From positions 1-64,000 of IMG/VR virus record IMGVR_UViG_3300042516_002076: a stretch of 64,000 nucleotides of DNA, one strand, 5' to 3'. The notes under the pieces were generated by a model, which had not been told where the DNA came from, searched no databases, and saw only the letters and a program-made list of their open reading frames with translations. Source of the DNA: a virus. Both the position numbers and the translations under genes were made by a program. The first letter of the stretch is position 1. The number at the start of each line of letters is the position of its first letter. Below, in pieces: positions 42,882 through 62,058 of this stretch.

Positions 42882-43319
42882 ATGATTAAATGGAAAAAAG
42901 AGATGCAAGAAAGTTACAATTTATACTTAGATGATATTAGAGAGCCTTCTCAATCATTCAAAAAGAGTGGTGATAGTAGATACAATGATTTAAAATGGAA
43001 CATTGTTAGATGTTATAGTGAATTTGTAGAAACAATAGCATTAAATGGTATTCCTAATATCGTATCATTTGACCACGATTTAGGTGAGGAACATATTAAC
43101 TACTATTTTGATAATGGTGGTAGAGAAAATCCTCCTGACCCATTAAAAGGTCACTTTACCGAAAAGACTGGATATGACTGTGCTAAGTGGTTGGTTGAGT
43201 ATTGTAGTGAAAATGGTTTACCAATGCCAGAATACCTAATACATTCAGCAAATCCTGTGGGAAGTCAAAATATCCGTTTTATATTGGAAAATTACACTAA
43301 AAAACACCCATTTTCATAA
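42882..43319 (+). CDS. cyclic-phosphate processing Receiver-like (cREC) protein
   Basis: 145 residues. YLDDIREP near 16, then VSFDHDLG near 63, TGYDCAKWLVEYC near 95 and HSANPVG near 122 is the conserved pattern of cREC-type proteins, receiver-like proteins linked to cyclic phosphate RNA/nucleotide processing in conflict systems and phages. AAAGGAG precedes the start by nine bases. Its stop lies within the first palindromic operator. Confidence 0.65.
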   Translation: MIKWKKEMQESYNLYLDDIREPSQSFKKSGDSRYNDLKWNIVRCYSEFVETIALNGIPNIVSFDHDLGEEHINYYFDNGGRENPPDPLKGHFTEKTGYDCAKWLVEYCSENGLPMPEYLIHSANPVGSQNIRFILENYTKKHPFS

Positions 43320-43340
43320 CTAGTTGATTATCAATGAGTT
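43318..43340 (+). promoter_or_regulatory. palindromic operator A1
   Basis: One of ten 23-bp sites with half-site AACTNRTTGA, three-base centre, TCAAYNAGTT. Here the centre is TTA. Overlaps the cREC stop codon. Confidence 0.6.
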
Positions 43341-43367
43341 ACGATATTAGAAAAAAATCTAATGTGT

Positions 43368-43390
43368 AAATGATTGATTGTCAACGATTT
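43368..43390 (+). promoter_or_regulatory. palindromic operator A2
   Basis: Less perfect copy of the 23-bp site (AAATGATTGA then TGTCAACGATTT), exactly 50 bases after A1 and 21 bases before the -33 TTG. Confidence 0.5.
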
Positions 43391-43411
43391 TAAAAAAACT
43401 TTCCAAAAAGT

Positions 43412-43442
43412 TTGGCGGTTTCAAAATAATGTCGTATCTTTG
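43412..43442 (+). promoter_or_regulatory. promoter A
   Basis: TTG at 43412-43414, 20 bases, TATCTTTG at 43435-43442. Confidence 0.75.
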
Positions 43443-43507
43443 GTATATATCCAAATTGATAAAGATATATCCACACACACATTATATAATCTTTTAATAT
43501 GACAGTT

Positions 43508-43765
43508 ATGAGTAAACTACCAAAAAATCTTAAAATGATTAGTTGTCCCAAATGTTTAGGTAAAATGCCTGAATTGAGATTAACTAAATTCGGTTATCGT
43601 TTTTGTATTAATTGTTCCACTACACAAAGAGTTGGTGGTGTTGCAATTGCAAATCATAAGACGGGTAACGAAATACAAATTATGCCTATGGAACAAGCAA
43701 ATAGATTATACAAGTTGTCACAAAGACAAGGGTATGGTGTTTGTAAAGGTATGAAACATAATTAA
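43508..43765 (+). CDS. zinc-finger protein
   Basis: 85 residues from the GTTATG start at 43508; an ATG at 43499 is possible. ISCPKCLGKMPEL and RFCINCSTTQ give two C-x2-C pairs. The end (QANRLYKLSQRQGYGVCKG) is a short helix. May bind nucleic acid or partner proteins. Confidence 0.55.
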   Translation: MSKLPKNLKMISCPKCLGKMPELRLTKFGYRFCINCSTTQRVGGVAIANHKTGNEIQIMPMEQANRLYKLSQRQGYGVCKGMKHN

Positions 43766-43793
43766 TAATATTTAACTTTTTAATTCTAAACAA

Positions 43794-43808
43794 ATGTGGA
43801 GCCACCAC
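43794..43808 (+). promoter_or_regulatory. 5'-leader hairpin
   Basis: TGTGG pairs with CCACA around AGCCA. The ATG at 43831 is about 35 bases after GTGG. The same stem shape with swapped outer base pair occurs at 48991. Confidence 0.4.
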
Positions 43809-43830
43809 ACTAAAAACTGGAAAAACACGT

Positions 43831-44001
43831 ATGACTACTTTAAAGTCTAAATTTGAATTTATTTCAAACCAATTAAACGAAGCATTAACTAGCGCTAACA
43901 CTACAACTTCTGAACAAAAGAAAGCGTATTATTTAAGTAGAGCTTTGTACTATTCACAAAGATTGAATACATTAGCACAAAGAGCTAAGATTTCTGCATA
44001 A
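43831..44001 (+). CDS. small helical protein
   Basis: 56 residues (TLKSKFEFISNQLNEALTSA then AYYLSRALYYSQRLNTLAQR), helical and uncharged in the middle. Not recognised. It lies between the hairpin leader and the tRNA-like element. Confidence 0.45.
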   Translation: MTTLKSKFEFISNQLNEALTSANTTTSEQKKAYYLSRALYYSQRLNTLAQRAKISA

Positions 44002-44015
44002 TTTGCAGATAAACT

Positions 44016-44061
44016 AAGATAGTTTGGAACATGTAGGGGTTCAATTCCCCTACTATCTTCA
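44016..44061 (+). ncRNA. tRNA-like acceptor/T-arm minihelix
   Basis: AGATAGT at 44017-44023 pairs perfectly with ACTATCT at 44052-44058, one more A-T pair extends it. The T-arm is AGGGG, loop TTCAATT (the T-loop consensus TTCRANN), CCCCT at 44035-44051, and joins the acceptor strand directly, as in tRNA. Only TTGGAACATGT lies where D-arm, anticodon arm and variable loop should be; its GG could take the place of D-loop G18-G19. Not a working tRNA. Could be processed by RNase P/Z, mimic tRNA or be a fragment. Confidence 0.5.
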
Positions 44062-44090
44062 TATTTATTAAACACTAAAACATAAAGAGT

Positions 44091-46181
44091 ATGGGCTGGT
44101 ATGACAGTTTTAAAACAGGTACATTAGATTACCTTACAAAAGGTAGTTATTCAAAACAAAAAAAGAAATCTGCAAGTTCATTTTGGGCAGATGAGTGGAG
44201 CCAGTACGATACTCCTACTACCTATTGGAGTGGTGGTGAATGGAAAACACAACAACTTTCCAAAGTAGAAAATAGTACGGCAGAGTTACTTAAACTTAAC
44301 GCACACAAAAGAGCAATCTCTAACTTTGTAAACATTCTTACAAATAAAAACATTCCTGTTACATTTGCTAAGAAAGGTGATTCATATACGGATGGTAAAT
44401 CCGTAGTATTATCAGCTGAGGTTAAACCTGATAAGTTTGACGTTGCAGTAGGTTTAGCATTGCACGAAGCATCACACATTGTTCTTACAGACTTTGAATT
44501 GATGCCTAAGTATAATGCACCTAAAGATATGTTCAATCAGTTTGCAGTTGCAGCTGGTAAGGACCCTCAAAATTTAGATAGTGTAGAATATCATCTAAAC
44601 AAAGATAACTTATTTGATGTAGTTAAATCATTGGTAAACTTTGTAGAGGATAGAAGGATTGATCAATACATCTACAATACTTGTCCAGGTTATAGAGATT
44701 ATTATAGAGCATTGTATGATGAGTATTTCTATGATACTACTATTGATAAGGGATTGCAAAGTGATGAATATACGGATGAAACATTACAATCGTATATGTT
44801 CCGTATCATTAATATCACAAACAGCAATAGTGACCTTAGTAAGTTAAAAGGTTTGAAAGAAATTTATCAAATCTTAGACCTTAAAAACATCAATAGGTTA
44901 AAATCAACTAAAGATTCATTAGAGGTAGCAGAAAAGATTACTAATACTATTCTAAAAAACATTAGTATTGAGTTATCCGAAAAACCACAAAATGGAAATG
45001 GTGAAGGTGAAGGTGGTGAACCACAAGAAATTGATGATTTGGGAGAAAACTTTGAAATTACACAAGGTGATGATAGTGGTGATAATTCATGTACAGGCGT
45101 TAAATTATCTAAAAATGCTAAGGCACAATTAGATAAAGCTATTAAGAAACAAAAAGATTTCGTAAACAATAATCTTAAAAAGAAAGCCTTAACTAAGAAA
45201 GAAAATGATACACTAGACCAAATTGATAAGAGTGGAACTACAATGGAAAATGTAGGTGATACTAAATTGGAAAATGGTGGACATATTCCAGTAGTTCAAT
45301 GTATGGTTTCTAAGAAAATGACAGAATCATTGATGCAAGATAGAGAGTTTCCATTTGCATATTGGAGTGATTATGATAATAAGTTTCACAACTGGAATGA
45401 GGAAACATTACGCAGAGGTATTATAATGGGTACTATTTTAGGTAAGAGAATTGCTGTTCGTAGTGAGGAAAGAGAAACAATCAATCCACGTCAAAAGAAT
45501 GGTAGAATTGATAAGAGAATGGTAGCGGCATTGGGGTATGATTATGTAAATGTATTCTCTCACAAAGAAGTAGATAAATTCAAAAAGGTAATGTTACATA
45601 TTACTATTGATGGTAGTGGTAGTATGAGTGGTAGGAATTGGAATGACTCATTGGCATTAGCAATTGCAATTTGTAAAGCAGGTTCAATGGTTAGTAACTT
45701 GAATGTGCAGGTATCTATTAGAGGTACTTGGGGTAACAAACCTTACATATGTATTGCGTATGATAGTAGAGTTGACAAGTTTGAGAAAGTAAAAAGATTG
45801 TTCCCTGCTTTACAAGCAAATGGTACAACACCTGAGGGTTTAACATTCCAAGCTATTATGAAACACTTTGTAGAAAGTACAAAAGATATGGATAGTTATT
45901 TCTTAAACATATGTGATGGTGAGCCTACCTTCTCAAACGATCAGGTAAGTTATGGTGGCCAAAATGCAGTTCTGCATACTAAGAAAATGGTAAACCAAAT
46001 TAGAGAAATGGGTATCAATGTAATGAGTTACTTTGTAAGTGAGGGTGGTGGTAGTAGTTGGGGTAGTAGTTCAAAGGATAAATTCAAACAAATGTATGGT
46101 AGTGACAGTAGATTCATAGATGTTACACAAATCGTACCAATTACAAAGACATTGAACGAGTTATTTATGAAAAAAGGGTAA
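44091..46181 (+). CDS. VWA-zincin protein, CobT-like
   Basis: 696 residues. ALHEASHIVLTDFE near 125 is a zincin HExxH motif, with FVEDRRIDQYI near 187 supplying a further acidic residue. A Glu-rich linker follows. The C-terminal von Willebrand factor A domain has the metal-adhesion site ITIDGSGSMSG near 503. The pairing of such a protein with a MoxR ATPase (next gene, after promoter B) is the CobS/CobT-like system seen in cyanophages and other T4-like phages, of uncertain role, possibly remodelling a host complex. Confidence 0.8.
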   Translation: MGWYDSFKTGTLDYLTKGSYSKQKKKSASSFWADEWSQYDTPTTYWSGGEWKTQQLSKVENSTAELLKLNAHKRAISNFVNILTNKNIPVTFAKKGDSYTDGKSVVLSAEVKPDKFDVAVGLALHEASHIVLTDFELMPKYNAPKDMFNQFAVAAGKDPQNLDSVEYHLNKDNLFDVVKSLVNFVEDRRIDQYIYNTCPGYRDYYRALYDEYFYDTTIDKGLQSDEYTDETLQSYMFRIINITNSNSDLSKLKGLKEIYQILDLKNINRLKSTKDSLEVAEKITNTILKNISIELSEKPQNGNGEGEGGEPQEIDDLGENFEITQGDDSGDNSCTGVKLSKNAKAQLDKAIKKQKDFVNNNLKKKALTKKENDTLDQIDKSGTTMENVGDTKLENGGHIPVVQCMVSKKMTESLMQDREFPFAYWSDYDNKFHNWNEETLRRGIIMGTILGKRIAVRSEERETINPRQKNGRIDKRMVAALGYDYVNVFSHKEVDKFKKVMLHITIDGSGSMSGRNWNDSLALAIAICKAGSMVSNLNVQVSIRGTWGNKPYICIAYDSRVDKFEKVKRLFPALQANGTTPEGLTFQAIMKHFVESTKDMDSYFLNICDGEPTFSNDQVSYGGQNAVLHTKKMVNQIREMGINVMSYFVSEGGGSSWGSSSKDKFKQMYGSDSRFIDVTQIVPITKTLNELFMKKG

Positions 46182-46198
46182 AAAACACCAAAAAACCT

Positions 46199-46221
46199 AA
46201 CTGGTTGAGTATCAACAAGTT
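46199..46221 (+). promoter_or_regulatory. palindromic operator B1
   Basis: AACTGGTTGA then GTA then TCAACAAGTT, a near-perfect copy of the 23-bp site. It leads into the 12-bp palindrome GTTATGCATAAC at 46219-46230. Confidence 0.6.
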
Positions 46222-46247
46222 ATGCATAACAATAAAATGGGGTGCAT

Positions 46248-46270
46248 AACTCGTTGATTACTAACCACTT
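46248..46270 (+). promoter_or_regulatory. palindromic operator B2
   Basis: AACTCGTTGA half-site intact, second half degenerate. Starts 49 bases after B1 and ends ten bases before the -33 TTG. Confidence 0.5.
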
Positions 46271-46280
46271 AAAAATATAT

Positions 46281-46311
46281 TTGGTAGATTGGCAAAAAAG
46301 TTGTATCTTTG
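46281..46311 (+). promoter_or_regulatory. promoter B for MoxR ATPase
   Basis: TTG at 46281-46283, 20 bases, TATCTTTG at 46304-46311. Confidence 0.75.
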
Positions 46312-46367
46312 ATATAATCAAATGAGTAGAAATATAAACAATAAACAATAAACATTAAATTTCAGTT

Positions 46368-47594
46368 ATGAGTAAAAAAATGCAAAACGCAGAGTTCGGT
46401 TACACACAAGAGTGTTACAAAGTAGACAACATTAAATCTCGCTTCAACCTTGTTAATACAATGGGTGAAGTTGCAGATGATTCAACGATTGTAGGTAGTT
46501 CAATGAGAAAGAGAGCACATACAAACGGAAAAGCAATTAGAGGACACATCAATAAGAATGGTGTGAAAACATATCGTATGGTAGAAATGCAAGAATATAC
46601 GGATATGTTGGTTAAGCCGATGAATACGGATATCGCAGAAACTATCGTAGAAAATCCAACGGAGCATAAAGATGTTATTGATTTCATCCACAAAGACGGT
46701 ATGGAGTTGAAACCTGCTAACTTAATTATGAACGAATTAAAGTGGAAATACTTATTGCGTTCAGCAGTTAGAGCTCGTAATATTATGATGACAGGACCGG
46801 CTGGTAGTGGTAAAACAATGGCAGCTAAAGCATTAGTAAGTGCATTGAAACGCCCTTTCTTTTACTTTAACTTAGGTGCTACACAAGACCCGAGAGCAGC
46901 TTTGATTGGTAACACACACTTTAACAAATCGACTGGTACATACTTTAGTGAATCAGCATTCATTAAAGCAATTAAGACACCTTATGCAGTTGTATTGTTA
47001 GATGAGTTGAGTAGAGCACATCCAGAAGCTGCTAATATCTTAATGACGGTATTAGACCAAACACAAAGATACTTACGATTAGATGAGCAAGATAATTCAC
47101 CAATCGTTGAGGTAGCAAAAGGTGTTACGTTTGTAGCAACCGCGAATATCGGCTCGGAATATACTGCAACACGTGTTATGGATAGAGCGTTGTTAGACCG
47201 TTTTGTAACTATTGAGGTAGATACACTAAACGCAGATCAAGAATATCAGTTATTAAATATGTTGTATCCTGATACCAATCAAGAGGATTTGAAAGCAGTA
47301 GCTGAAATTGCATCTCACACACGTGACCAAGTAAAAAGTGAGGTTGGTAAATTAACAACGGCAGTATCTACTCGTATTTCAGTAGAGATGGCAGGTTTGT
47401 TATATGATGGTTTCAACTTATTAGAAGCAGCAGAAGTAGCAATCTTTCCATTCTATTCGCAAGATGGTGGTATGGATAGTGAACGTACATATATTAAACA
47501 ATTAGTTCAAAAATACATCCGTGACGAGAATGATGGTGAAAAGTTATTCAACGAAGTGACAGAAGATGCTAATGATGATACGATAGTGTGGTAG
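46368..47594 (+). CDS. MoxR-family AAA+ ATPase, CobS-like
   Basis: 408 residues. Walker A GPAGSGKT near 142, Walker B VVLLDELSR near 206, sensor 1 FVATANIGS near 260 and the arginine-finger region DRALLDRF near 275. MoxR enzymes act as chaperones with VWA partners; the VWA-zincin gene is immediately upstream, so the two likely form a complex. It has its own operator-controlled promoter. Confidence 0.9.
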   Translation: MSKKMQNAEFGYTQECYKVDNIKSRFNLVNTMGEVADDSTIVGSSMRKRAHTNGKAIRGHINKNGVKTYRMVEMQEYTDMLVKPMNTDIAETIVENPTEHKDVIDFIHKDGMELKPANLIMNELKWKYLLRSAVRARNIMMTGPAGSGKTMAAKALVSALKRPFFYFNLGATQDPRAALIGNTHFNKSTGTYFSESAFIKAIKTPYAVVLLDELSRAHPEAANILMTVLDQTQRYLRLDEQDNSPIVEVAKGVTFVATANIGSEYTATRVMDRALLDRFVTIEVDTLNADQEYQLLNMLYPDTNQEDLKAVAEIASHTRDQVKSEVGKLTTAVSTRISVEMAGLLYDGFNLLEAAEVAIFPFYSQDGGMDSERTYIKQLVQKYIRDENDGEKLFNEVTEDANDDTIVW

Positions 47595-47605
47595 ATATGT
47601 TATGA

Positions 47606-47644
47606 GGGTAGAGTTCATACTCATACTCATAACTGGCTCTACCC
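47606..47644 (+). other. hairpin after MoxR gene
   Basis: GGGTAGAG pairs with CTCTACCC around a loop that contains CATACT repeats. No T tract follows, so it may protect or process the mRNA rather than terminate it. Confidence 0.4.
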
Positions 47645-47655
47645 AATATTAACTC

Positions 47656-47690
47656 GATAGGGGTGCATTCTGCATCCCTATCATTTTTTT
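47656..47690 (+). terminator. hairpin terminator
   Basis: GATAGGG-TGCA pairs with TGCA-CCCTATC (one mismatch) around TTC, then seven Ts. Confidence 0.85.
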
Positions 47691-47709
47691 AATTTTAAAA
47701 CATAAACAT

Positions 47710-48360
47710 ATGCCGAATTGGTGCTTAAATAGATTGACAGTAAGTGGTGATAAACATGAGATTAACAAATTCAAAGAACTTACATTAGTTAAACCGGAGA
47801 AAAGTAGTGAACTGAATTTTACTATGGAAGTTTTATATCCTACTCCAACGGAATTATTAGAACAAACATCACCTGCAATGTGGCGTGGTGACGAACTGGA
47901 TGTTGAAGGTAAGTTGGAATTTGAAAAGAAGATAGAAGAAATTAAAGAAAAGTATGGATATACTGACTGGTATAATTGGAGAGTAGATAAGTGGGGTACT
48001 AAATGGGATGCAGCAGAAAGTTGTATATGTGATGATACGGATGAATTATTTGTAGTAGAATACGATACAGCATGGGCACCTAATATTGCTTGGGTTCAAT
48101 ATGTAGCAAAAGCATTTCCTGCATTACAATTTACTTTGACCTTTGAAGAACCCAGTATGAACTTTTGTGGTATATACGAAGTGAAAGGTGAAAATGAGGA
48201 CCTAATGGAAGGTGAATTAGAATATGTAGATGAAGAAACAGGTAGACAGGTTTACTATGATGGTGAAATTGAAAAGTATCGTTATAGTGACACGAATGAA
48301 ATCGCAGGTACTGAAGATGAAGACTTTTGGCCTGAAATGAGAAACCCTTTTAATAACTAA
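47710..48360 (+). CDS. Api92-like protein
   Basis: 216 residues. MPNWCLNRLTVSG at the start and WGTKWDAAESC then YDTAWAPNIAWV are the fingerprints of Api92/DUF1281-like phage proteins with a ferredoxin-like fold. Acidic end. Role unknown. Confidence 0.7.
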   Translation: MPNWCLNRLTVSGDKHEINKFKELTLVKPEKSSELNFTMEVLYPTPTELLEQTSPAMWRGDELDVEGKLEFEKKIEEIKEKYGYTDWYNWRVDKWGTKWDAAESCICDDTDELFVVEYDTAWAPNIAWVQYVAKAFPALQFTLTFEEPSMNFCGIYEVKGENEDLMEGELEYVDEETGRQVYYDGEIEKYRYSDTNEIAGTEDEDFWPEMRNPFNN

Positions 48361-48369
48361 ACAAACACA

Positions 48370-48972
48370 ATGGCATTAACTAAAAACGTAACGGCATTCA
48401 TTAATCATGTGAAAGGACATTGTAAAGAAGTAGGTATTAAATATGATGTTCGTCCTGTAAAGTATTTGGTATTAAGTGGCAATATAAGATGTAGTGGTTA
48501 CTTTTGTGAAGAAACTATGAAATTAGTAGTAGCAGGTAAAAGTAAAGATTGGTTGGGTATATTAGTACACGAATACGCACATCTAACACAATGGCAAGAT
48601 AAGAGCACTAACATATGGAAAACCGGCTCGACTGGAGTGACAAATTTAGATGATTGGTTAGGTGGTAAGAAAATTCGTAGTGTTAAGAAAGCAATAGAAT
48701 GGAGTAGAGATTTAGAATTGGATAATGAGAAACGTGCAGTAAAACTAATTAAAAAATGGCAACTACCGGTAGACCTTAACGATTACATTAAAAAAGCAAA
48801 CGCATATATTCAGTTCTACAATTATATGAGATACTCAAAGAGATGGAGTAGACCAGGCAACGCACCATATAGTAACAAAGCTATTTATGAAGCGATGCCA
48901 CCTAATTTTAGAATGAACTACAAAAAAATGAGTGACAAGTATTTAAAATTATACAAAGAACAAAATATATAA
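48370..48972 (+). CDS. zincin metallopeptidase-like protein
   Basis: 200 residues. ILVHEYAHLTQW near 60 is an HExxH motif; ELDNEKRAVKLI near 117 could supply the third ligand. SprT-like length. The Glu is kept, so activity is plausible. Substrate unknown. Confidence 0.6.
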   Translation: MALTKNVTAFINHVKGHCKEVGIKYDVRPVKYLVLSGNIRCSGYFCEETMKLVVAGKSKDWLGILVHEYAHLTQWQDKSTNIWKTGSTGVTNLDDWLGGKKIRSVKKAIEWSRDLELDNEKRAVKLIKKWQLPVDLNDYIKKANAYIQFYNYMRYSKRWSRPGNAPYSNKAIYEAMPPNFRMNYKKMSDKYLKLYKEQNI

Positions 48973-48990
48973 AGATTTTTTTTAAAACGA

Positions 48991-49005
48991 AGTGGAGACA
49001 CCACT
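48991..49005 (+). promoter_or_regulatory. 5'-leader hairpin
   Basis: AGTGG pairs with CCACT around AGACA, 34 bases before the ATG at 49026. Core GTGGAGNCACCAC, followed two bases later by TAAAAA, is shared with 43796. Confidence 0.4.
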
Positions 49006-49025
49006 ATAAAAATTGAATTATAAAC

Positions 49026-50309: not shown

Positions 50310-50313
50310 AAAC

Positions 50314-50347
50314 AAAGGGGGACAGAAATGTTCCCCTTTTTTTGTTA
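50314..50347 (+). terminator. hairpin terminator
   Basis: AAGGGGGACA pairs with TGTTCCCCTT (one wobble) around a GAAA tetraloop, then a T tract. Same tetraloop as at 42835. Confidence 0.85.
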
Positions 50348-50372
50348 ATCACATTATTTATTAGTATATTTA
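50342..50372 (+). promoter_or_regulatory. promoter, leaderless transcript
   Basis: TTG at 50342-50344 in the terminator T tract, 20 bases, TATATTTA at 50365-50372, ATG at 50376. Confidence 0.5.
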
Positions 50373-50375
50373 AGT

Positions 50376-50660
50376 ATGGAATTTAATAAGACAGATGAGG
50401 AACTAAAACAAATGTCAGATGATGAATTGTTTGCTTATTTAGATGCCAAAGCAGCACATTTAAAGAAGTATACTGCACCCTTAAGCAATTGGCATGTTAA
50501 ACGATATTCTCACATTGGAGAAGCAGTAAGTAAAACGGATAGAGGAACGGATGAAGTGTTCGCAGATGGGTTGTATGATAGTTTAAAACCGATTATAGAG
50601 GCAAATGATAGTGAATCATTTAATAGAATGGCAGATAAAATTAAAAAGAGAAATAAATAA
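50376..50660 (+). CDS. hypothetical protein
   Basis: 94 residues, acidic N-terminus (DEELKQMSDDELFAYLDAKA), charged helical C-terminus. Not recognised. Overlaps the next ATG by one base. Confidence 0.5.
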   Translation: MEFNKTDEELKQMSDDELFAYLDAKAAHLKKYTAPLSNWHVKRYSHIGEAVSKTDRGTDEVFADGLYDSLKPIIEANDSESFNRMADKIKKRNK

Positions 50661-51113: not shown

Positions 51114-51115
51114 TT

Positions 51116-54354: not shown

Positions 54355-54356
54355 AT

Positions 54357-54379: not shown

Positions 54380-54426
54380 ATCTATGTCTATTAGATTTTT
54401 TTTATATATGAAAAAAACATATGCGT

Positions 54427-54449
54427 AACTGATTGATCCTCAATAAAAA
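54427..54449 (+). promoter_or_regulatory. palindromic operator C3
   Basis: AACTGATTGA with TCAA kept and the last bases lost, 70 bases after C2. Confidence 0.45.
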
Positions 54450-54475
54450 CTTTTAAAAATAGTTCAAAAATAGCA

Positions 54476-54505
54476 TTGTTAGTCAAAAATATCGTCGTAT
54501 CTTTG
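54476..54505 (+). promoter_or_regulatory. promoter C
   Basis: TTG at 54476-54478, 19 bases, TATCTTTG at 54498-54505. A box GCATTGTTAGTC around the TTG is shared with promoter D. Confidence 0.75.
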
Positions 54506-54550
54506 GGTATATCCCAACAATGAGGGACTGGTATATAAAAAAATTATAAT

Positions 54551-55396
54551 ATGAATACAATGAAATTTACAACAATCGGTAATGCTAAAAAGGTAACGGG
54601 TTTATCTTATTTAGGTAGTGTAGCAAGTAGTTCAAAAATTGCTAAAGGTTTAAAGTACAATGAAATGACTTACATTTTGTATCTTGCTCCTGCTGAACAA
54701 AGTGGTTACAATGTTTGTCCTGGTTCAACGGCTGAATGCAGAGAAGCTTGTTTAACTGAAAGTGGACACAATAGAATTGATGTTAAGAAAAATGCAATCA
54801 ACAAAGCTCGTATCAAAAAAACTAAATTGTTCTTTGAGCATAGAGAGTTCTTTATGGGTTGGTTAGTAACTGAAATTAATAAAGCTAGAAACGATGCCTT
54901 TGCTAAAGGATATACATTTTCAGTTCGTTTAAATGGGACATCGGATATTCAACCAACATTATTTAAATTCAATGGTAAGGTGATTTTTGATGTATTTAAC
55001 GAAGTGACATTTTATGATTATACTAAGGTTGCTAATCGTTTTAAGTTATTAAATAAGTATTCTAACTATGATTTAACTTATTCTTTTAGTGGTTACAATA
55101 TGTTACAATCATTGGAGTTATTAGAAAATAATAAAGGTAGAGTTGCAATGGTATTTGAAGGTAAACAATTACCCAAATCATTTATGGGTTACAAAGTAAT
55201 TGATGGTGATGAATACGATATGAGACACTTAGATGAGACGGGTGTAATTGTAGGATTGAAGTTTAAGTTTGTTAGAACAAAGATTGATACTGCACATAAC
55301 AAATTCATTATCCCTATGGATAGCAAGTTTAGTGTGTATGATGTAAACCCTTTGATAACAAAAGCTGCTCAAAATAAATTGGCATTAGCTAAGTAA
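54551..55396 (+). CDS. gp88-like phage protein
   Basis: 281 residues. YILYLAPAEQSGYNVCPGST then AECREACLTESGHNRIDVKK near 40-80, three cysteines (CPG...C...C), are the fingerprint of the gp88 family of phages. RLNGTSDIQPTLF near 138 follows. The fold resembles radical-SAM-like barrels, but no function is known. Confidence 0.65.
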   Translation: MNTMKFTTIGNAKKVTGLSYLGSVASSSKIAKGLKYNEMTYILYLAPAEQSGYNVCPGSTAECREACLTESGHNRIDVKKNAINKARIKKTKLFFEHREFFMGWLVTEINKARNDAFAKGYTFSVRLNGTSDIQPTLFKFNGKVIFDVFNEVTFYDYTKVANRFKLLNKYSNYDLTYSFSGYNMLQSLELLENNKGRVAMVFEGKQLPKSFMGYKVIDGDEYDMRHLDETGVIVGLKFKFVRTKIDTAHNKFIIPMDSKFSVYDVNPLITKAAQNKLALAK

Positions 55397-55397
55397 T

Positions 55398-55535
55398 ATG
55401 AAAACACATTATGAAAGAACTATCAAACGTACCGAACAAAAAGAAGCGGGTGCATTTGATGGTAGGTATAAACAAAAGATTGTACCTAACAAAAAAAGAA
55501 AAGCCGCTAAATTGTGGGCTCGTAAAAACAAATAA
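55398..55535 (+). CDS. small basic protein
   Basis: 45 residues with many Lys/Arg (KQKIVPNKKRKAAKLWARKN). ATG and stop fit neatly after the previous gene and before 55547. May bind nucleic acid. Confidence 0.45.
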   Translation: MKTHYERTIKRTEQKEAGAFDGRYKQKIVPNKKRKAAKLWARKNK

Positions 55536-55546
55536 AATATAAAGAT

Positions 55547-55759
55547 ATGAAATTAGAATTGAATTTATTGGAATTGAATCAGTTGTATTATGCAACTAGT
55601 AAGTTAGTAGAACAAAATGAGTCTCACTTAAAAGAGTTGGGTACAAATATTAGTAGTATAGAATACTTTACTAATGAATTAAATAAATCAGTAGTGTTGA
55701 GAAATAAAATACAAACTAGTTTGTATGATGAAGTTAATAAATTAGATAACATAGATTAA
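55547..55759 (+). CDS. small helical protein
   Basis: 70 residues, leucine- and asparagine-rich helices (LNLLELNQLYYATSKLVEQN). Not recognised. Confidence 0.5.
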   Translation: MKLELNLLELNQLYYATSKLVEQNESHLKELGTNISSIEYFTNELNKSVVLRNKIQTSLYDEVNKLDNID

Positions 55760-55770
55760 ATAATAATATT

Positions 55771-56118
55771 ATGAGAGTAACTGATGAAAAAGCAATAGAG
55801 TATCTTAATGGTAACCCTATTGTAAAAAAGTTTATAGATGAAGTAAATGAAAAAAGAAAAGAATACTATAAAGGTAATTCTTTTATGGATGGAAAAACGG
55901 ATTTGATTATTGAGATAGGTAACAAATATATTCGTTTATGGAGTGGGACTAGTTGTTGGGGTTTTATTAGTAGAGTGGATGGCGATTTGAAAGGTGCACC
56001 GATTAAGAAAGGTGATTTATTAAAACCAGCAACTTGGAAAGCACCAGCAAAACACGCTAGAGGTAACATAATAGATGGTACAGCAAGATGGAGTGAATAC
56101 GGACCTGAATATCTTTAA
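55771..56118 (+). CDS. hypothetical phage protein
   Basis: 115 residues. IEIGNKYIRLWSGTSCWGFI then GDLLKPATWKAPAKHARGN resembles a small phage protein with a beta barrel and a basic loop; not assigned. Likely not secreted. Confidence 0.55.
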   Translation: MRVTDEKAIEYLNGNPIVKKFIDEVNEKRKEYYKGNSFMDGKTDLIIEIGNKYIRLWSGTSCWGFISRVDGDLKGAPIKKGDLLKPATWKAPAKHARGNIIDGTARWSEYGPEYL

Positions 56119-56132
56119 TTAAAACAAACTAT

Positions 56133-56192
56133 ATGAATAGATTTATACCCTGGTATCCAATCAACGAAGTAATTAAAAACATTAAAAGATAA
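56133..56192 (+). CDS. very short possible ORF
   Basis: 19 residues (MNRFIPWYPINEVIKNIKR), ATATG spacing like neighbours. Too short to be sure. Confidence 0.2.
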   Translation: MNRFIPWYPINEVIKNIKR

Positions 56193-56195
56193 TAT

Positions 56196-56882
56196 ATGAG
56201 TATCAATAGAACAAAAAACTTTATAGCAACTATCCCAATGAAAAGTGAGGAGCAGGTTATAGAAATTAAAAAAGTATTAGAACAAATCTTTGGTTGGGTA
56301 GTATTGAAAGGTCGTCATAGTGACAGAAAATCCGTAGTTAAGAATTGGATGAAGTGGAAACAAAATGATGTACCTTGGAGATTAGCTCAGTATATTGATG
56401 TTTACTTACATCCTAAGAATCCAAACTATAATAGTACGAAAGGTATTCATAGACAGAATATGAAGTTAAATGATAATAGTGTTATTACTGCTCGTATGTT
56501 AGGTAATATGAAATTGAGTTTTGCAGATGGGCATTACAATACGATACAAAGTAAAGGTGGTACACCATATCAAGTAATAATGAATATGCATAACAAAACT
56601 TATCATAAAGTTGTAGTGACACAAACACCGAAAGTTCACCGAAATTCTAAAAAACCTTATGGTATGGTTGCTAAACAAATATGGCAGTTTATGAAAGTTA
56701 GACATGATGCTAGTTTTACCGAAATAAAAACTTATTATGATGTTGATATTAGAGGTAACAAAACTATGATTGATGGTGGTAGTTTTATTCATCATCACCA
56801 ATCATTAAGAAAACCATCAACAAAGAGAGGTTGGTATTTAGCTAAAAAACCAAATGGTAGATACACATTAAATGTATGTTAA
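56196..56882 (+). CDS. hypothetical basic protein
   Basis: 228 residues, rich in Lys and His (RGWYLAKKPNGRYTLN at the end, FIHHHQSLRKPSTKRGW before it). The first 60 residues could be a ferredoxin-like domain. A basic, His-rich protein may bind nucleic acid. Not recognised. Confidence 0.5.
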   Translation: MSINRTKNFIATIPMKSEEQVIEIKKVLEQIFGWVVLKGRHSDRKSVVKNWMKWKQNDVPWRLAQYIDVYLHPKNPNYNSTKGIHRQNMKLNDNSVITARMLGNMKLSFADGHYNTIQSKGGTPYQVIMNMHNKTYHKVVVTQTPKVHRNSKKPYGMVAKQIWQFMKVRHDASFTEIKTYYDVDIRGNKTMIDGGSFIHHHQSLRKPSTKRGWYLAKKPNGRYTLNVC

Positions 56883-56883
56883 T

Positions 56884-57087
56884 ATGAAAACATTTATAGT
56901 AATTTATTTAGTGTTAATGTTACCGGTAATCGGACAAGCACATACACTAATGAAACAAAATATAACTGAGCAAGTTAGAAATACCTTCATCTATAATTTT
57001 AGAGTGTTTATAGTATTAATATTCTATACTCCGAGATGGTGGTGGTTATTCTTTATAGGATTGATTGATAAATTTAAAAATAAATAA
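56884..57087 (+). CDS. small membrane protein
   Basis: 67 residues from MKTFIV at 56884. Signal-like or membrane segment (FIVIYLVLMLPVIGQA), second hydrophobic segment with RWWWLFFIG. Not recognised. Confidence 0.45.
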   Translation: MKTFIVIYLVLMLPVIGQAHTLMKQNITEQVRNTFIYNFRVFIVLIFYTPRWWWLFFIGLIDKFKNK

Positions 57088-57088
57088 A

Positions 57089-57310
57089 ATGGCAATATAC
57101 AACAATGAGATTGACCCAAATATAATAATGTGGGAGCAATTAGAAAAAGAAAGAAACGAAACAATAGCAACACTAGAGTTTCAAGAATGGATGAAAGAAT
57201 TAAATGTTTCTCAATCATATGAGGACCCTACATTAAAACATAATGCAGGTGATTTGATGAGACAGTACGATATGAAAAAATATTCTAAATTAAACTTTAA
57301 ACAAAACTAA
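57089..57310 (+). CDS. small hypothetical protein
   Basis: 73 residues, start at MAIYNN directly after the previous stop. Acidic helix (WEQLEKERNETIATLEFQEW). Not recognised. Confidence 0.45.
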   Translation: MAIYNNEIDPNIIMWEQLEKERNETIATLEFQEWMKELNVSQSYEDPTLKHNAGDLMRQYDMKKYSKLNFKQN

Positions 57311-57311
57311 T

Positions 57312-57719
57312 ATGAACATAGCATTAACAATAGAACAAGTAAAGATGATGAGCAAAGCCGGATTTCACAAAGAAGCATTAGATGAATGTGATAAGGCAAT
57401 TGAGTATTTAGTAAAAGCAGAGAATGAGGGTAAATCATCCGTAGTGACATATTTACCAATTTTCGGTGAACCTATTATGACTAGATACGGAGTAAGTAAA
57501 AGAGTAAACGGATATGATAAGAAAGAATCTAAAAACATTGAGTTTTGGAAAGATAGATTCTTTGATTTGATATTGTTGTTTACGCAAAGATACAATAGAA
57601 AAATGGGAATTAAACCAAAGAAAGTAAAACCCTTTAAGAAAGGAAGTGTTGATAGAGTATATGCATCAAATGCAAGTTTTGGTTCAGCAGGACCTTCATA
57701 TAGAAATTCATTAGATTAA
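57312..57719 (+). CDS. hypothetical protein, basic end
   Basis: 135 residues. Helical first half (TIEQVKMMSKAGFHKEALDE), basic C-terminus (KPKKVKPFKKGSVDRVYA). Not recognised. Confidence 0.5.
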   Translation: MNIALTIEQVKMMSKAGFHKEALDECDKAIEYLVKAENEGKSSVVTYLPIFGEPIMTRYGVSKRVNGYDKKESKNIEFWKDRFFDLILLFTQRYNRKMGIKPKKVKPFKKGSVDRVYASNASFGSAGPSYRNSLD

Positions 57720-57739
57720 TAAATAAAAACAAATAAATT

Positions 57740-58096
57740 ATGAAAGCGATTAAGATTGATGCAAAAAATAGACAAGTTATTGAAGTAGATATTACATCTG
57801 ACTACAATGATATTAACAAAGAGATTGGTTCTCAAATATTCACAATAGCACATTCGTTAAAGAAGCGTGATACTATTATGGTAGATGATGAGGGATTATA
57901 TAATAATGATAATACTTTCTTTGTTTATAAAGGAGCACATCAGCCGTTTGCAGGTAATGGTTTGATTGTAGGTTGTAATGCAAAAGGTGACACAGTTGAT
58001 TGTAAGATTGATATCAACGAAGTGAAACAAAATGTAGAGTTTTACGATAGAAACACATTAGCTATGGCAATGGCATTTGGTAAAGTAAAATACTAA
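57740..58096 (+). CDS. DUF3846-like protein
   Basis: 118 residues. AIKIDAKNRQVIEVDITSDY, then DTIMVDDEGLYNNDNTFFVY and GNGLIVGCNAKGD are the pattern of DUF3846-type phage proteins. Role unknown. Confidence 0.6.
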   Translation: MKAIKIDAKNRQVIEVDITSDYNDINKEIGSQIFTIAHSLKKRDTIMVDDEGLYNNDNTFFVYKGAHQPFAGNGLIVGCNAKGDTVDCKIDINEVKQNVEFYDRNTLAMAMAFGKVKY

Positions 58097-58097
58097 T

Positions 58098-58244
58098 ATG
58101 AGAACGTATTATGATGTAACATTAGTGACAATAAGTGGAGATAAGGTGGATATCAAAAAATTAACATATTCACAAATCGCACAATTAACATCTAATGCAG
58201 ATTTAAATAGAATTATAATTAATAAAGAATATACTAAAAAATAA
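58098..58244 (+). CDS. microprotein
   Basis: 48 residues (MRTYYDVTLVTISGDKV then SQIAQLTSNADLNRIIINKE). Starts one base after the previous stop. Not recognised. Confidence 0.45.
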   Translation: MRTYYDVTLVTISGDKVDIKKLTYSQIAQLTSNADLNRIIINKEYTKK

Positions 58245-58248
58245 AGTT

Positions 58249-58626
58249 ATGGGATTAGATATGTATGCTTTTTCTACTAAAGCAAAACCGAAATCGGAAG
58301 TAGATTTTGAAACTAAGAATTTTAAACCAGAGGAAGTTCACTATTGGAGAAAGCATCCAAACTTACATGGTTGGATGCAATCGTTATATGATTCAAAGGG
58401 TGGAACATCCGATAGTTTCAATGGTGATTGTGTTGTATTGGATAGTGAAGATTTAGATAATTTAGAACAAGATATAAGAGATTATAATTTACCAGATACA
58501 TCTGGTTTCTTTTTTGGACAAAGTAGTAATGGTGATGAAGAAATCAAAGATGATTTGGAGTTTGTTAGTAAAGCAAGGGAAGCAATCAAACAAGGTAAGA
58601 CCGTATATTACACAAGTTGGTGGTAA
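58249..58626 (+). CDS. phage protein with MGLDMY start
   Basis: 125 residues. MGLDMYAF, VHYWRKHPNLHGWMQSLYD, GFFFGQSS and a YYTSWW end form a conserved phage family I recognise but cannot name. Acidic and compact. Confidence 0.55.
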   Translation: MGLDMYAFSTKAKPKSEVDFETKNFKPEEVHYWRKHPNLHGWMQSLYDSKGGTSDSFNGDCVVLDSEDLDNLEQDIRDYNLPDTSGFFFGQSSNGDEEIKDDLEFVSKAREAIKQGKTVYYTSWW

Positions 58627-58642
58627 AATTAAAATTTAAAAT

Positions 58643-58858
58643 ATGATTAAGAGTAAAAAACAAAAGTTAGGAATTGAAATTGATTTGACGGGACCGGATG
58701 GTAACGCATTTGTATTGATTGGTATGGCAAGTAGATTAGCTAAACAATTAGGTAAAGATGGTAGAGCCATTCAAAAAGAAATGATTGATGGTAATTACGA
58801 ACATTTAGTAAACACATTCGATAAACATTTCGGAGAATTTGTAACCTTATATAGATAA
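58643..58858 (+). CDS. small phage protein
   Basis: 71 residues. GPDGNAFVLIGMASRLAKQL then MIDGNYEHLVNTFDKHFGEF, a family recurring in T4-like phages without function. Confidence 0.55.
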   Translation: MIKSKKQKLGIEIDLTGPDGNAFVLIGMASRLAKQLGKDGRAIQKEMIDGNYEHLVNTFDKHFGEFVTLYR

Positions 58859-58862
58859 CACA

Positions 58863-59195
58863 ATGAGATTCAAATCAAATCATCCACCATTTTCATACGA
58901 AGGAGTATTCAGTAACCAAAAGTATGTTATATGTAGTTCCGATGGAGATGGGTGGGTTAAAGTAGATAGACATTATAGTTGGAATGAATTAGAACCATTG
59001 TGGGATAAAATAGAATATGGTAAAACTAATGTAGTGACAAAAACTAAACGAAAAGAATACAAAGTAAGTGGTAGTAAAGGAAATGTATATAAAGTAGTTA
59101 GTGATGAGGGCATTTGGAGTTGTAGTTGTCCCGCACATGGTTTCGGTAGAGGTAAAGATTGTAAACATATTATTCAAATAAAAAATAAAAAATAA
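58863..59195 (+). CDS. SWIM zinc-finger protein
   Basis: 110 residues. WSCSCPAHGFGRGKDCKHII near 87-106 is a SWIM finger (C-x-C...C-x-H). Could bind DNA or proteins. The other SWIM protein is at 61100. Confidence 0.7.
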   Translation: MRFKSNHPPFSYEGVFSNQKYVICSSDGDGWVKVDRHYSWNELEPLWDKIEYGKTNVVTKTKRKEYKVSGSKGNVYKVVSDEGIWSCSCPAHGFGRGKDCKHIIQIKNKK

Positions 59196-59200
59196 AAGTT

Positions 59201-59584
59201 ATGGGATGTTTTAGTTTTATATGTAAAGAGACTGGGTTGCCAGTTGCATCAGATTCATTTAGTGGTGATGCGGTAAGATTGTACCTATTAAAAAATGGTG
59301 AGGTTATAGAGGAGATGCGAGGTCATTACGATTCATATGGTAGAGTATTCAAAGACAAAACTTGTGAAGATTCGTTTGAATGGAAAATGCATTGGAGTGA
59401 TGTATGTGATATGATGTTTAATGATAATCCAGGTGATGGTATTGCGGTAGTATTAGAAAAGTATTTTACAGGTAAGATACCAACAACACAAAGTGAAGGA
59501 GATCCTGACCAAGGATGGGGTGAATATAATGGTGGTGGTAAAAAAATTAAAGAACCAGCACATATTGTATATTTTAAAAAATAA
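59201..59584 (+). CDS. phage protein with MGCFSF start
   Basis: 127 residues. MGCFSFICKETGLPVASDSF then RGHYDSYGRVF are conserved in a phage family of unknown role. Confidence 0.55.
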   Translation: MGCFSFICKETGLPVASDSFSGDAVRLYLLKNGEVIEEMRGHYDSYGRVFKDKTCEDSFEWKMHWSDVCDMMFNDNPGDGIAVVLEKYFTGKIPTTQSEGDPDQGWGEYNGGGKKIKEPAHIVYFKK

Positions 59585-59587
59585 AAG

Positions 59588-59749
59588 ATGCAAGTAAAAG
59601 AAAGTAAAACAAATTGGCACTTTAGAATAAGTGTAGCTAAATCAATTTTAAGGATTATAGCAGGTATCGCATTAGTGAATAGTTTACTGATTCCAGCCGG
59701 TTCATTTTTTATAGTGGCTGAGATATTAGGAATTATTGAGGAATTGTAA
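59588..59749 (+). CDS. small membrane protein
   Basis: 53 residues with a hydrophobic segment (ILRIIAGIALVNSLLIPAG) at about 21-45. Starts three bases after the previous stop. Not recognised. Confidence 0.45.
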   Translation: MQVKESKTNWHFRISVAKSILRIIAGIALVNSLLIPAGSFFIVAEILGIIEEL

Positions 59750-59760
59750 AACTTAGTAGA

Positions 59761-59955
59761 ATGAAAAATACACTTAAACAACGAACTTACGAATGTAAAT
59801 GTGGGGCATTAACAAAAGAATATCTTTGGGATAATGATTTGGATAACACAAAAGTTAAATGTTCGGATTGTTCAAAGTTATTAACTAAAAAGAATTTAGT
59901 AACACAAACTACAACCGATGCAGTAAGTATTAGAACACCAACAAAAAATAGATAA
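59761..59955 (+). CDS. zinc-ribbon microprotein
   Basis: 64 residues; YECKCGAL and VKCSDCSK supply C-x-C and C-x2-C. Basic tail. Confidence 0.5.
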   Translation: MKNTLKQRTYECKCGALTKEYLWDNDLDNTKVKCSDCSKLLTKKNLVTQTTTDAVSIRTPTKNR

Positions 59956-59958
59956 CAA

Positions 59959-60333
59959 ATGAAAAAAATATTTCCAAAGAAAGAAAGAGGACCAATGATG
60001 TTAATTGATAAGGTATTTACTATTCCATTATTTCATGCTAATACACAACAATATGTATGTACCGAAGTTGTGGAATTAGGTAGTAGTACACATAGTAAAA
60101 CATATGGATTATATTTCAAATGGTTACCAACATCATTTAGTGTACCTGAAATATTAAGAATGGACATTGAAATATACAAACAAAATATTAAACCATTTTT
60201 AGTTAGCATATCTTTGTATGAAAAAACAAATAGTGGAAACTATGTTGTAACTTGTAATGGACATTTTGATGAAGATTACATATCAACGCCTGCAAAAATT
60301 CAAACTATGATTGAACGATTAATAAATAGATAA
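59959..60333 (+). CDS. hypothetical protein
   Basis: 124 residues, beta-rich (YGLYFKWLPTSFSVPEILRM). No family recognised. Overlaps the next start by one base. Confidence 0.5.
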   Translation: MKKIFPKKERGPMMLIDKVFTIPLFHANTQQYVCTEVVELGSSTHSKTYGLYFKWLPTSFSVPEILRMDIEIYKQNIKPFLVSISLYEKTNSGNYVVTCNGHFDEDYISTPAKIQTMIERLINR

Positions 60334-60695
60334 TGAAAACAAAAACATATTTTAGTGAGTTCCGTGGTGACATTGCTGTTGCTATTTTAGGTAAAGATGA
60401 TTATCGATACGGAGTGATGAAACCTTTATTCGATATGTGTGGTTTTGGTTTTGCTGAAACAAGTTCGGGTTGTGTATTCATTGATGGTGAAGTAAAACTA
60501 ACCAAAGATGAATTGAAATGGGTAGAAGCACATGAAGTAGCACACATACTTTTAAAACACACAAAGGAAAGAAACGATAATGATGAAATTGCAGCTGATA
60601 TGTTTGCAATTATATTACTAAAAGATAAAGGATATACCAAAGCAGCACAATTGATAGAGGACAAATTTGAAGAAAGACATAAAAGAAAATTATAA
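60333..60695 (+). CDS. zincin (ImmA/M78-like) protein
   Basis: 120 residues. WVEAHEVAHILLKHTKERND near 62 is HExxH, and DEIAADMFAI near 85 supplies the third metal ligand; this is the pattern of ImmA/IrrE-like peptidases. It lacks an N-terminal DNA-binding domain. Might cut a host regulator. Confidence 0.6.
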   Translation: MKTKTYFSEFRGDIAVAILGKDDYRYGVMKPLFDMCGFGFAETSSGCVFIDGEVKLTKDELKWVEAHEVAHILLKHTKERNDNDEIAADMFAIILLKDKGYTKAAQLIEDKFEERHKRKL

Positions 60696-60698
60696 GTT

Positions 60699-61103
60699 AT
60701 GAATTACAATATAATACTTTCAATAGTAATGGTATGTTTACCTTACGAAATGGAACGTGAAGAGTTACGAATCAATAAAATGATTGAAACGATTACTCCC
60801 GAAATAGTGACACTAACCACATATAAAGCAAATGTAGGAGAAACCGATAGTACACCAAATATAACTGCGAGTGGTTTTAAAATTACTAACCCAAAGAAAC
60901 ATAGAATAATTGCAGTTAGTAGAGATTTAAAAAAGAAATACAAATTCGGACAAAAGATAAGAATAACAGGAGCCGGTAAATATGATGGCACGTATAGGGT
61001 ACATGATGTAATGAACAAACGATATAGAAATAGAATTGATATATTAATTGGAGATAAAGATAAACAAACTAAATTAAACAAAATTAAAATATATAAGATA
61101 TGA
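60699..61103 (+). CDS. 3D-domain (MltA/RlpA-like) protein
   Basis: 134 residues. Hydrophobic N-terminus (IILSIVMVCLP), then TYKANVGETDSTPNITASGF and KYDGTYRVHDVMNKRYRNRI near 90-112 with three aspartates that define the 3D domain of peptidoglycan-active transglycosylases. Candidate lysis or injection enzyme. Confidence 0.6.
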   Translation: MNYNIILSIVMVCLPYEMEREELRINKMIETITPEIVTLTTYKANVGETDSTPNITASGFKITNPKKHRIIAVSRDLKKKYKFGQKIRITGAGKYDGTYRVHDVMNKRYRNRIDILIGDKDKQTKLNKIKIYKI

Positions 61104-61633
61104 GAAGGCCAGAAAATTTCCACAAAATAGATAATGAAAGTTTACCAATAGGTAGTCAAATAGTAAATATAGATGTAAGCAAAGAAGGGTTTTTTGTTAT
61201 GAATAATGGGATTGGTAATAGTTGGAATAATGTAGTTCTATTTGAAATGGATTGGGAAAACGAACAATACAATGTTAAGATATGTGTATTGGGTGAAGGA
61301 ACGGATGGTTGGTATTTACATGAAAAACTGCCTATACCAAAATTTTTAATGAAAACCGTAAATGCATTTAAAGAATTTGTATATAGTAATATGATGGATG
61401 TGGTATCTAAGGTAGATTTAACTAACATAGAACCTGATATGGCAGGAATAACTAATGTAGATGTAGTAGAAGTTAAACATAATGTACAAAGTAGTTCAGG
61501 TCCTAATACAACATACGAAGTGACAGAAAATGTAGGTGGAATTTTTGATTTATGGAGTTGTAGTTGTCCTGCATTTATGTATAGTAAAGAAACACCACAA
61601 ACGTGTAAACATATTAAATCAATTAAAAAATAA
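61100..61633 (+). CDS. SWIM zinc-finger protein
   Basis: 177 residues. The C-terminal WSCSCPAFMYSKETPQTCKH matches the finger of 58863. The rest is beta-rich, not assigned. Confidence 0.65.
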   Translation: MRRPENFHKIDNESLPIGSQIVNIDVSKEGFFVMNNGIGNSWNNVVLFEMDWENEQYNVKICVLGEGTDGWYLHEKLPIPKFLMKTVNAFKEFVYSNMMDVVSKVDLTNIEPDMAGITNVDVVEVKHNVQSSSGPNTTYEVTENVGGIFDLWSCSCPAFMYSKETPQTCKHIKSIKK

Positions 61634-61637
61634 ACAT

Positions 61638-61910
61638 ATGAAACAATTTAAAGACTTGGAATTTAAACCACACCCAATGGCAGATGGATTGAATGGTATA
61701 ATTAGCCGTATTGAATTTGATAATGGATTCGGTGCAAGTGTAGTAAAACATCAATACTCTTATGGTGGTGATAGAGGCTTATATGAATTAGCAGTATTGG
61801 ATAGTAATGGTGAAGTGCATTATGATAATTCAGTTGCTAATGGTGATGTGATTGGTTATTTAAGACCTGAAGATGTGACAGATGTAATGGAAAAAATACA
61901 AAAATTGTAG
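61638..61910 (+). CDS. small phage protein
   Basis: 90 residues from MKQFKD; an in-frame ATG at 61536 lies inside the previous gene. PHPMADGLNGIISRIEFDNG then GDRGLYELAVLDSNG and VIGYLRPEDV form a known phage family without function. Confidence 0.55.
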   Translation: MKQFKDLEFKPHPMADGLNGIISRIEFDNGFGASVVKHQYSYGGDRGLYELAVLDSNGEVHYDNSVANGDVIGYLRPEDVTDVMEKIQKL

Positions 61911-61951
61911 TGTTCATATATTAAATAATCATAATATATGGATAAAAGCAT

Positions 61952-61974
61952 AACTCATTGATTATCAGCAAGTT
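61952..61974 (+). promoter_or_regulatory. palindromic operator D1
   Basis: AACTCATTGA, TTA, TCAGCAAGTT: differs from C1 in one base. Confidence 0.65.
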
Positions 61975-61976
61975 AT

Positions 61977-61999
61977 AAGTTGTTGGTTTTCAATGAGTT
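61977..61999 (+). promoter_or_regulatory. palindromic operator D2
   Basis: Starts 25 bases after D1, as C2 does after C1 (AAGTTGTTGG, TTT, TCAATGAGTT). Confidence 0.6.
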
Positions 62000-62035
62000 A
62001 TAAATCTTTATGGCATTGGGTAATTATTAAGACGT

Positions 62036-62058
62036 AACTCGTTGATACTCAATAAACA
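62036..62058 (+). promoter_or_regulatory. palindromic operator D3
   Basis: AACTCGTTGA, then TAC and TCAA; end degenerate, like C3. Confidence 0.45.

Follow-up and report, generated by a model that had tools for sequence, protein, structure and literature searches.

Eleven copies of one palindromic element lie upstream of five promoters in the IMG/VR virus record IMGVR_UViG_3300042516_002076, an uncultured Bacteroidota phage. The record is 69,098 bp long, and its first 64,000 bases, the whole stretch first presented, are called the window here. A new observation is that the distances between neighboring sites follow a helical comb with a period of 10.5 bp. Judging from the sequences, we give a slightly better than even chance (about 0.55) to the reading that the palindromes are sites of one dimeric regulator, probably a phage-encoded activator, acting on a subset of host-type promoters.

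Palindromic sites in the phage record

The window was searched with the pattern AACTNRTTGANNNTCAAYNAGTT, allowing up to three mismatches. Twelve matches were obtained, versus a mean of 0.40 and a maximum of 2 over 100 dinucleotide shuffles. The original prediction had described ten palindromic sites before four promoters (A to D), and all of them were recovered, three as exact matches and the others with 1–3 mismatches. The consensus of the 25-bp palindrome is approximately TAACTnRTTGATnATCAAYnAGTTA. A symmetric 25-bp matrix, in which each promoter was left out of the training when it was tested, placed the ten sites at ranks 2–11 over all positions of the record. The predicted spacings of 50 bp (A), 49 bp (B), 25 and 70 bp (C), and 25 and 59 bp (D) were exact, and all ten sites were located upstream of the -33 box, as had been read from the sequence.

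Ten of the eleven matrix matches above 15 bits were intergenic, in a record with a non-coding share of only 8.6%; thus, the genome-wide scan proposed with the prediction did not give an equal density within genes. The eleven sites of the record are all located at 42–62 kb, and the matrix scan detected none in the first 42 kb. The claim that no similar site is present at other promoters was wrong, as operator E (one mismatch) precedes a fifth promoter. The remaining match in the window, at 55562, has three mismatches and 11.6 bits, lies within a gene and is probably due to chance. Eleven promoter-like intergenic sequences were found in the record, five with operators and six without (-7 at 407, 34119, 36074, 41067, 42612 and 50365). 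The combination of -33 TTTG and -7 TAnnTTTG is a known Bacteroides promoter type, according to extracts of the source (PMC7366714).

Recurrence in jumbo and small phages

The record groups with jumbo phages, relatives whose records reach 289 kb. Relatives were collected through the AAA ATPase encoded behind promoter B, and 80 of 198 IMG/VR loci were kept, some of them from records of 130–289 kb. A site above 13 bits was present within 500 bases upstream of the AAA gene at 23 of the 80 loci, and most of the nearest relatives had one. The promoter-B sites were also found in L246 (genome G001), L248, L249, L251, L272 and others, and their spacing varies, being 49 bp in the window and L246 and 38 bp in L272. 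In G001, operators recur at the same promoters A, B, C and E, and the ferredoxin gene carries an identical operator E site at 37570, ahead of a like promoter. In a set of eight genomes (G000, G001, G006, G019, G020, G029, G035 and G038), 134 matrix sites above 15 bits were detected versus 7 in the reversed sequences, and 120 of the 134 were intergenic, with non-coding shares of 6.5–19.8%.

A single-site variant, AACCCATTGA...TCAATGGGTT, is present in G019 (288,673 bp) at 18656, 33478, 178174, 186087 and 240155, and its sequence suggests a regulator of changed specificity. A de novo dyad search recovered ATTGA-N3-TCAAT in G019 without the matrix. The same search yielded A/T runs or nothing in the site-poor relatives G011, G014 and G023, and its power is low, because nothing was found in the site-bearing G006 either. 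A tblastn search with the AAA ATPase gave 26 phage records, every one below 60% identity, and no close isolated relative; the two that were checked, LR756508 and OP172706, are without sites. Literature searches with the cores TTGATTATCAA and TTGATAATCAA gave, by title, no paper on phages, and topic searches turned up nothing on such operators, one of them giving a LexA paper (PMC8565304); we do not claim that the element is unpublished.

The exact pattern was found in at least 120 stretches of IMG/VR. Among the matches listed was a distinct group of small phages with sites (L028, L036, L052, L070, L095, L098, L111 and L120). Five of them (L036, L052, L070, L095 and L120) have only 0–3 ORFs (open reading frames, at least 80 residues) in common with the jumbo set, and profile searches detected some common families; the small phages are therefore distinct but not wholly unrelated. 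Their sites cluster between divergent genes or ahead of leading operons. The presence of one palindromic word in both groups points to a phage switch that they may have in common.

Helical spacing of neighboring sites

Similar promoters and clusters were dropped before counting, by which 332 were reduced to 93, 176 to 82 clusters, and 78 pairs to 25, including 21 with spacings of 80 bp or less. The 82 clusters provided 124 neighbor spacings: 25 bp (24 times), 26–30 (22), 34–41 (23), 43 (1), 46 (1), 48–51 (24), 58–60 (11), 64–71 (9) and 79–103 (9). The classes 31–33, 52–57 and 61–63 were empty, and the spacings form a comb at about 27, 38, 50, 60 and 70 bp. The best period was 10.6–11.2 bp, varying with the range considered, and was not reached in any of 1500 simulations. 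The phase was similar in two sequence sets (6.9 and 7.4 bp of 10.5). With a strict filter, in which spacer and flanks were compared with an identity cut-off of 60%, close to the 95th percentile of shuffled pairs, the 21 spacings were 34, 35, 37, 37, 38, 39, 40, 41, 48, 49, 49, 50, 51, 51, 51, 59, 60, 60, 60, 69 and 79 bp. Their best period was 10.5 bp, with p=0.0003, or p=0.0045 over all periods. In G001, a promoter that is D-like in sequence but stands before another gene has 21 and 10 bases missing compared with D, close to two helical turns and one. In the 25-bp step the sites abut, which is an arrangement of its own. The original prediction had explained 50 as about twice 25, which is not the rule; as the family spacings lie on a comb of about 10.5 bp, 50 is one tooth of it.

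Position of the sites relative to promoters

In the eight genomes, 68 site-promoter pairs were obtained by a promoter rule that misses variants such as TAACTTTG in G001. The site was upstream in 62 pairs, farther upstream in two, downstream in four and over the core in none. The site centers of the 62 upstream pairs were 40–90 bases (38 pairs) or 90–165 bases (24 pairs) from the -7 end. This is a class-I-type placement, upstream of -33/-35 and not over the core. For the exact IMG/VR sites listed, a promoter was present within 237 bases downstream, in either orientation, at 47 of 123 sites versus 157 of 2400 random positions. At bacterial loci, a close downstream promoter accompanied 2 of 123 exact sites versus 72 of 2360 random positions.

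Proposed mechanism and points against it

We propose that one sequence-specific dimeric regulator binds the 25-bp palindromes. It would control a subset of the host-type promoters (-33 TTTGG, -7 TATCTTTG), binding at a single site or at several upstream of the -33 box. Neighboring molecules, and probably also RNA polymerase, would touch across a fixed helix turn, so that spacings would change by about whole turns. The regulator most likely activates in class-I style, since the core promoter was free of sites in all pairs found. Its gene most likely belongs to the phages, and this would account for the occurrence of the sites in two distinct phage groups and their lack in the sampled host chromosomes. 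The original prediction that one regulator has operators at several promoters of one region is well supported by their mostly intergenic, upstream and recurrent positions and by their confinement to some promoters, but a captured host regulator, which it also offered, found no support in the sampled genomes. The sites may serve an early region, as it had suggested.

Several results weigh against this proposal. Cut-offs stricter than the filter described above left 5 spacings and no period (p=0.39). Operators were present at only 36 of the 188 promoter-like sequences found by the same rule in the eight genomes. The -33 boxes of 25 operator promoters scored 3.80 of 5, versus 3.89 for 125 promoters without operators (p=0.72); they are no weaker, as the cores of class-I targets usually but not necessarily are, and a need for activation is therefore not visible. 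The phasing of 26 single sites to the -7 end had a p value of 0.004 at 10.5 bp, which rose to 0.04 when all periods were considered. Their distances gather at 51–52, 60–64 and 70–75, with 58, 67, 68, 84, 89 and 91 off the peaks, and the phasing was weaker when the nearest site of all 48 promoters was used. Helical phasing between site and promoter is thus suggestive. Some relatives are poor in sites above 15 bits: G011 has 0 (control 0), G014 has 2 (control 2) and G023 has 1 (control 0). When G000 and G001 were compared, the identities of sites versus flanks were 43/50 versus 111/152 at A, 40/50 versus 104/137 at B, 64/75 versus 160/203 at C and 69/75 versus 100/187 at the D-like promoter, and only at the last were the sites clearly better kept. 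Finally, no regulator gene that tracks the sites was found among the candidates examined in both phage groups.

Alternative explanations

The sites may instead bind a host-encoded transcription factor recruited by several phages. The occurrence of the same sites, next to host-type promoters, in two distinct phage groups would agree with this, as would the finding that none of the DNA-binding families seen in both groups tracks them. We made 1,089 look-ups of Bacteroidota genomes in three overlapping samples of 395, 346 (one order) and 348 (another order), the latter two with a slightly narrower pattern. Exact sites were present in 6 of 395 (reversed control, 4 of 395), 2 of 346 and 4 of 348 genomes, so no host regulon is visible in these samples, outside of which the true hosts may lie. 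The site-bearing genomes had one exact match each, except G434 with 12. Eleven places of the first sample were classified as three in genes, five between convergent genes, two tandem and one divergent; hence, eight of the eleven were in genes or between convergent genes. A composite pattern of site and promoter was absent from all 395 genomes, which is weak evidence because this pattern matched only 25 of the 120 viral loci listed and misses the record studied here. The non-canonical LexA of Bacteroidetes, described with phage-like regulators, has palindromic operators in the same phylum, but its motifs GGA-N5-TCC and CTAA-N5-TTAG are not the consensus found here, as far as extracts of the paper show (PMC8565304). 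We consider recruitment of a host factor unlikely, although it is among the better-placed alternatives.

Equally improbable in our estimate is the explanation that the sites are repressor operators, where cooperative dimers would turn the promoters off at some stage by looping the DNA upstream or coating it. Helically phased neighboring operators are classic for looping, cooperative repressors, and the -33 boxes of the operator promoters are as good as those of the others. However, none of the 68 site-promoter pairs has its site over the core, where repressor sites usually lie.

A candidate for the regulator itself is a small ribbon-helix-helix (RHH) family, alignment A2 (L016 1300-1440, G020, G019, G013 and G021). 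It has weak Pfam matches to RHH_5, ParG and 56B_RHH, it was found in all five of the searched 250–290 kb records (G013, G014, G019, G020 and G021), and in the small phages L016, L028, L098 and L111 its gene is located 1–3 kb downstream of the operators, on the side towards which an operator promoter points. However, in G020 and G019 the gene lies away from operators, and the family is present in G014, in which the sites equal the reversed control (2 versus 2). Furthermore, it is absent from G039 (482 kb, 11 sites) and G006 (237 kb, 8 sites), and from the site-bearing small phages G442, G443, G444 and G447. The family is a weak lead, and its role as the regulator is doubtful. The RHH protein at 22587, which the original prediction had named for gel shifts, is not supported, as its orthologue (46–52% identity) is kept in the site-poor G011, G014 and G023.

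Other candidates were examined in both groups. Profiles of 39 small-phage families were run against eleven genomes and part of G013, and seven matched below 0.003, including the RHH family A2 (F37) and F25. The latter, which we take to be a T4-type late sigma factor, is also present in site-less genomes. In the small phages G443 and G447, 54 of 108 ORFs, picked by eye towards non-structural ones, were compared with Pfam and PHROGs (25 of 50 PHROG families listed). The sigma-like family F3 is present in 11 small-phage sequences, and four of the five members tested matched phrog_1740, RNA polymerase sigma factor; the member of G443 itself gave a weak helix-turn-helix match only. A DUF5856 protein assigned to phrog_858 ('starvation-inducible transcriptional regulator') is likewise encoded by the small phages, with a counterpart at 29734-30108 of the window; it is taken to be family F31, which is found in the site-less G014 and G023. 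Neither F3 nor the phrog_858 protein tracks the sites in both groups, and both were rejected. The small phages thus have DNA-binding proteins, and among the 54 ORFs none was seen to track the sites in both groups. We also inspected by eye the families of G020 and G019 that are present in at least three of four site-bearing genomes and absent from G011, G014 and G023, and saw no DNA-binding protein among them. A protein of the Ogr/Delta zinc-finger family (PF04606) was above the cut-off in none of 24 site-bearing records, and this search gave two matches below the threshold, in which stops occur.

We consider it very improbable that the sites are repeat elements or terminator hairpins with no regulatory role: the same core does occur 178 times in one Microscillaceae genome and 12 times in G434, where it is more often self-complementary, but the viral sites are upstream of promoters with helical spacing and are less self-complementary at position 5. 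Free position 5 was self-complementary in 0.19 of 125 viral versus 0.62 of 121 bacterial sites, as would suit a protein-binding site better than a hairpin, and position 6 in 0.45 of viral and bacterial sites alike. The full self-complementarity and the position after genes expected of terminator or repetitive extragenic palindromic (REP) hairpins were not found for the viral sites. The Microscillaceae genome is a metagenome-assembled one (Prado074, G046; loci L127–L202), and its copies are exact matches of AACTNNTTGANNNTCAANNAGTT. All of the 17 classified copies are between genes, 7 of them between convergent genes, and self-complementarity at the two free positions together was seen in 0.60 of 30 sites.

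Coordinates and neighboring genes

The operators and promoters are listed in Table 1 with the sigma-like genes of family F3.

Table 1. Coordinates of operators and promoters in the window, and of F3 genes in the loci named
Feature	Position	Strand	Remarks
Operator E	42182..42204	+	1 mismatch; 24.1 bits; within last 71 bases of ferredoxin ORF 41935-42252; ends 33 bases before TTTGG of promoter E
Promoter E	42237..42268	+	-33 TTTGG 42237-42241; -7 TATCTTTA 42261-42268; next gene 42309-42587
Operator A1	43318..43340	+	exact match
Operator A2	43368..43390	+	50 bp downstream of A1
Promoter A	43411..43442	+	TTTGG 43411-43415; TATCTTTG 43435-43442; first gene 43499-43765, small CxxC...CxxC protein
Operator B1	46199..46221	+	exact match
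Operator B2	46248..46270	+	49 bp downstream of B1
Promoter B	46280..46311	+	TTTGG 46280-46284; TATCTTTG 46304-46311; AAA ATPase gene 46368-47594
Operator C1	54332..54354	+	exact match
Operator C2	54357..54379	+	abuts C1, 25-bp step
Operator C3	54427..54449	+	15.8 bits; right half weak
Promoter C	54476..54505	+	TTGTTAG 54476-54482; TATCTTTG 54498-54505; Gp88-family gene 54551-55396
Operator D1	61952..61974	+	
Operator D2	61977..61999	+	abuts D1, 25-bp step
Operator D3	62036..62058	+	22.1 bits; right half weak
Promoter D	62095..62124	+	TTGTTAG 62095-62101; TATCTTTG 62117-62124; followed by gene 62172-62585 (no function assigned) and DNA ligase gene 62587-63696
F3 sigma-like gene	L016 2515-3084		
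F3 sigma-like gene	L028 3364-3921		
F3 sigma-like gene	L098 4981-5535		

The small CxxC...CxxC protein encoded behind promoter A was rejected as the regulator, its profile having detected it in many relatives without sites. It has a conserved 'GGVAIANHKTGNEIQIM' tail, is widespread in the jumbo relatives and remained below every Pfam cut-off. Directly ahead of operator A, the gene at 42882-43319 codes for a protein that carries a cyclic-phosphate-processing receiver domain (cREC_REC, E 3e-21), and a family resembling this protein is kept in site-bearing relatives. Elsewhere in the window, at 36406-39684, the phage encodes a 1092-residue outer-membrane beta-barrel protein (Pfam OMP_b-brl_4, E 3e-50) with a carboxypeptidase-regulatory-like domain, which resembles a bacterial surface receptor.

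Discussion

To our knowledge, little is known of gene control in Bacteroidota phages without isolates. In phi29, a phage of Bacillus, the late activator p4 is a phage protein that acts on a host-type promoter from an inverted repeat located upstream of it. For P2 Ogr and P4 Delta, a TGT-N12-ACA palindrome is present at four promoters, whose transcription needs a phage-encoded activator, according to extracts of the source (PMC3931495). The phages described here likewise repeat one palindromic element at several promoters. Their element differs from that motif in sequence and size, its arrays can hold five or more phased sites, and the site-bearing records lacked a PF04606 protein above the cut-off, as described above. 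In class-I activation by CRP, the effect follows a distance period of about 10.5 bp, according to extracts of the source (PMC6301791). The upstream sites of the present phages resemble this arrangement, and the distances of single sites to the -7 end peak near 51, 62 and 72 bases. Unlike in the CRP system, these sites are not of the CRP type, the phasing to the promoter is suggestive, and activation is inferred from the sequence.

As a tentative extension, which we rate well below even odds, a regulator of an undescribed family could read one helically phased operator code in two groups of Bacteroidota phages, jumbo and small, and co-infecting phages could then switch each other's promoters. 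The operator code can be read from sequence and marks promoters that may be co-regulated in many metagenomic phages. The operator word supplies bait DNA for finding its protein, and the helical rule predicts that shifts of 5 bp would break control, while shifts of 10 bp would keep it.

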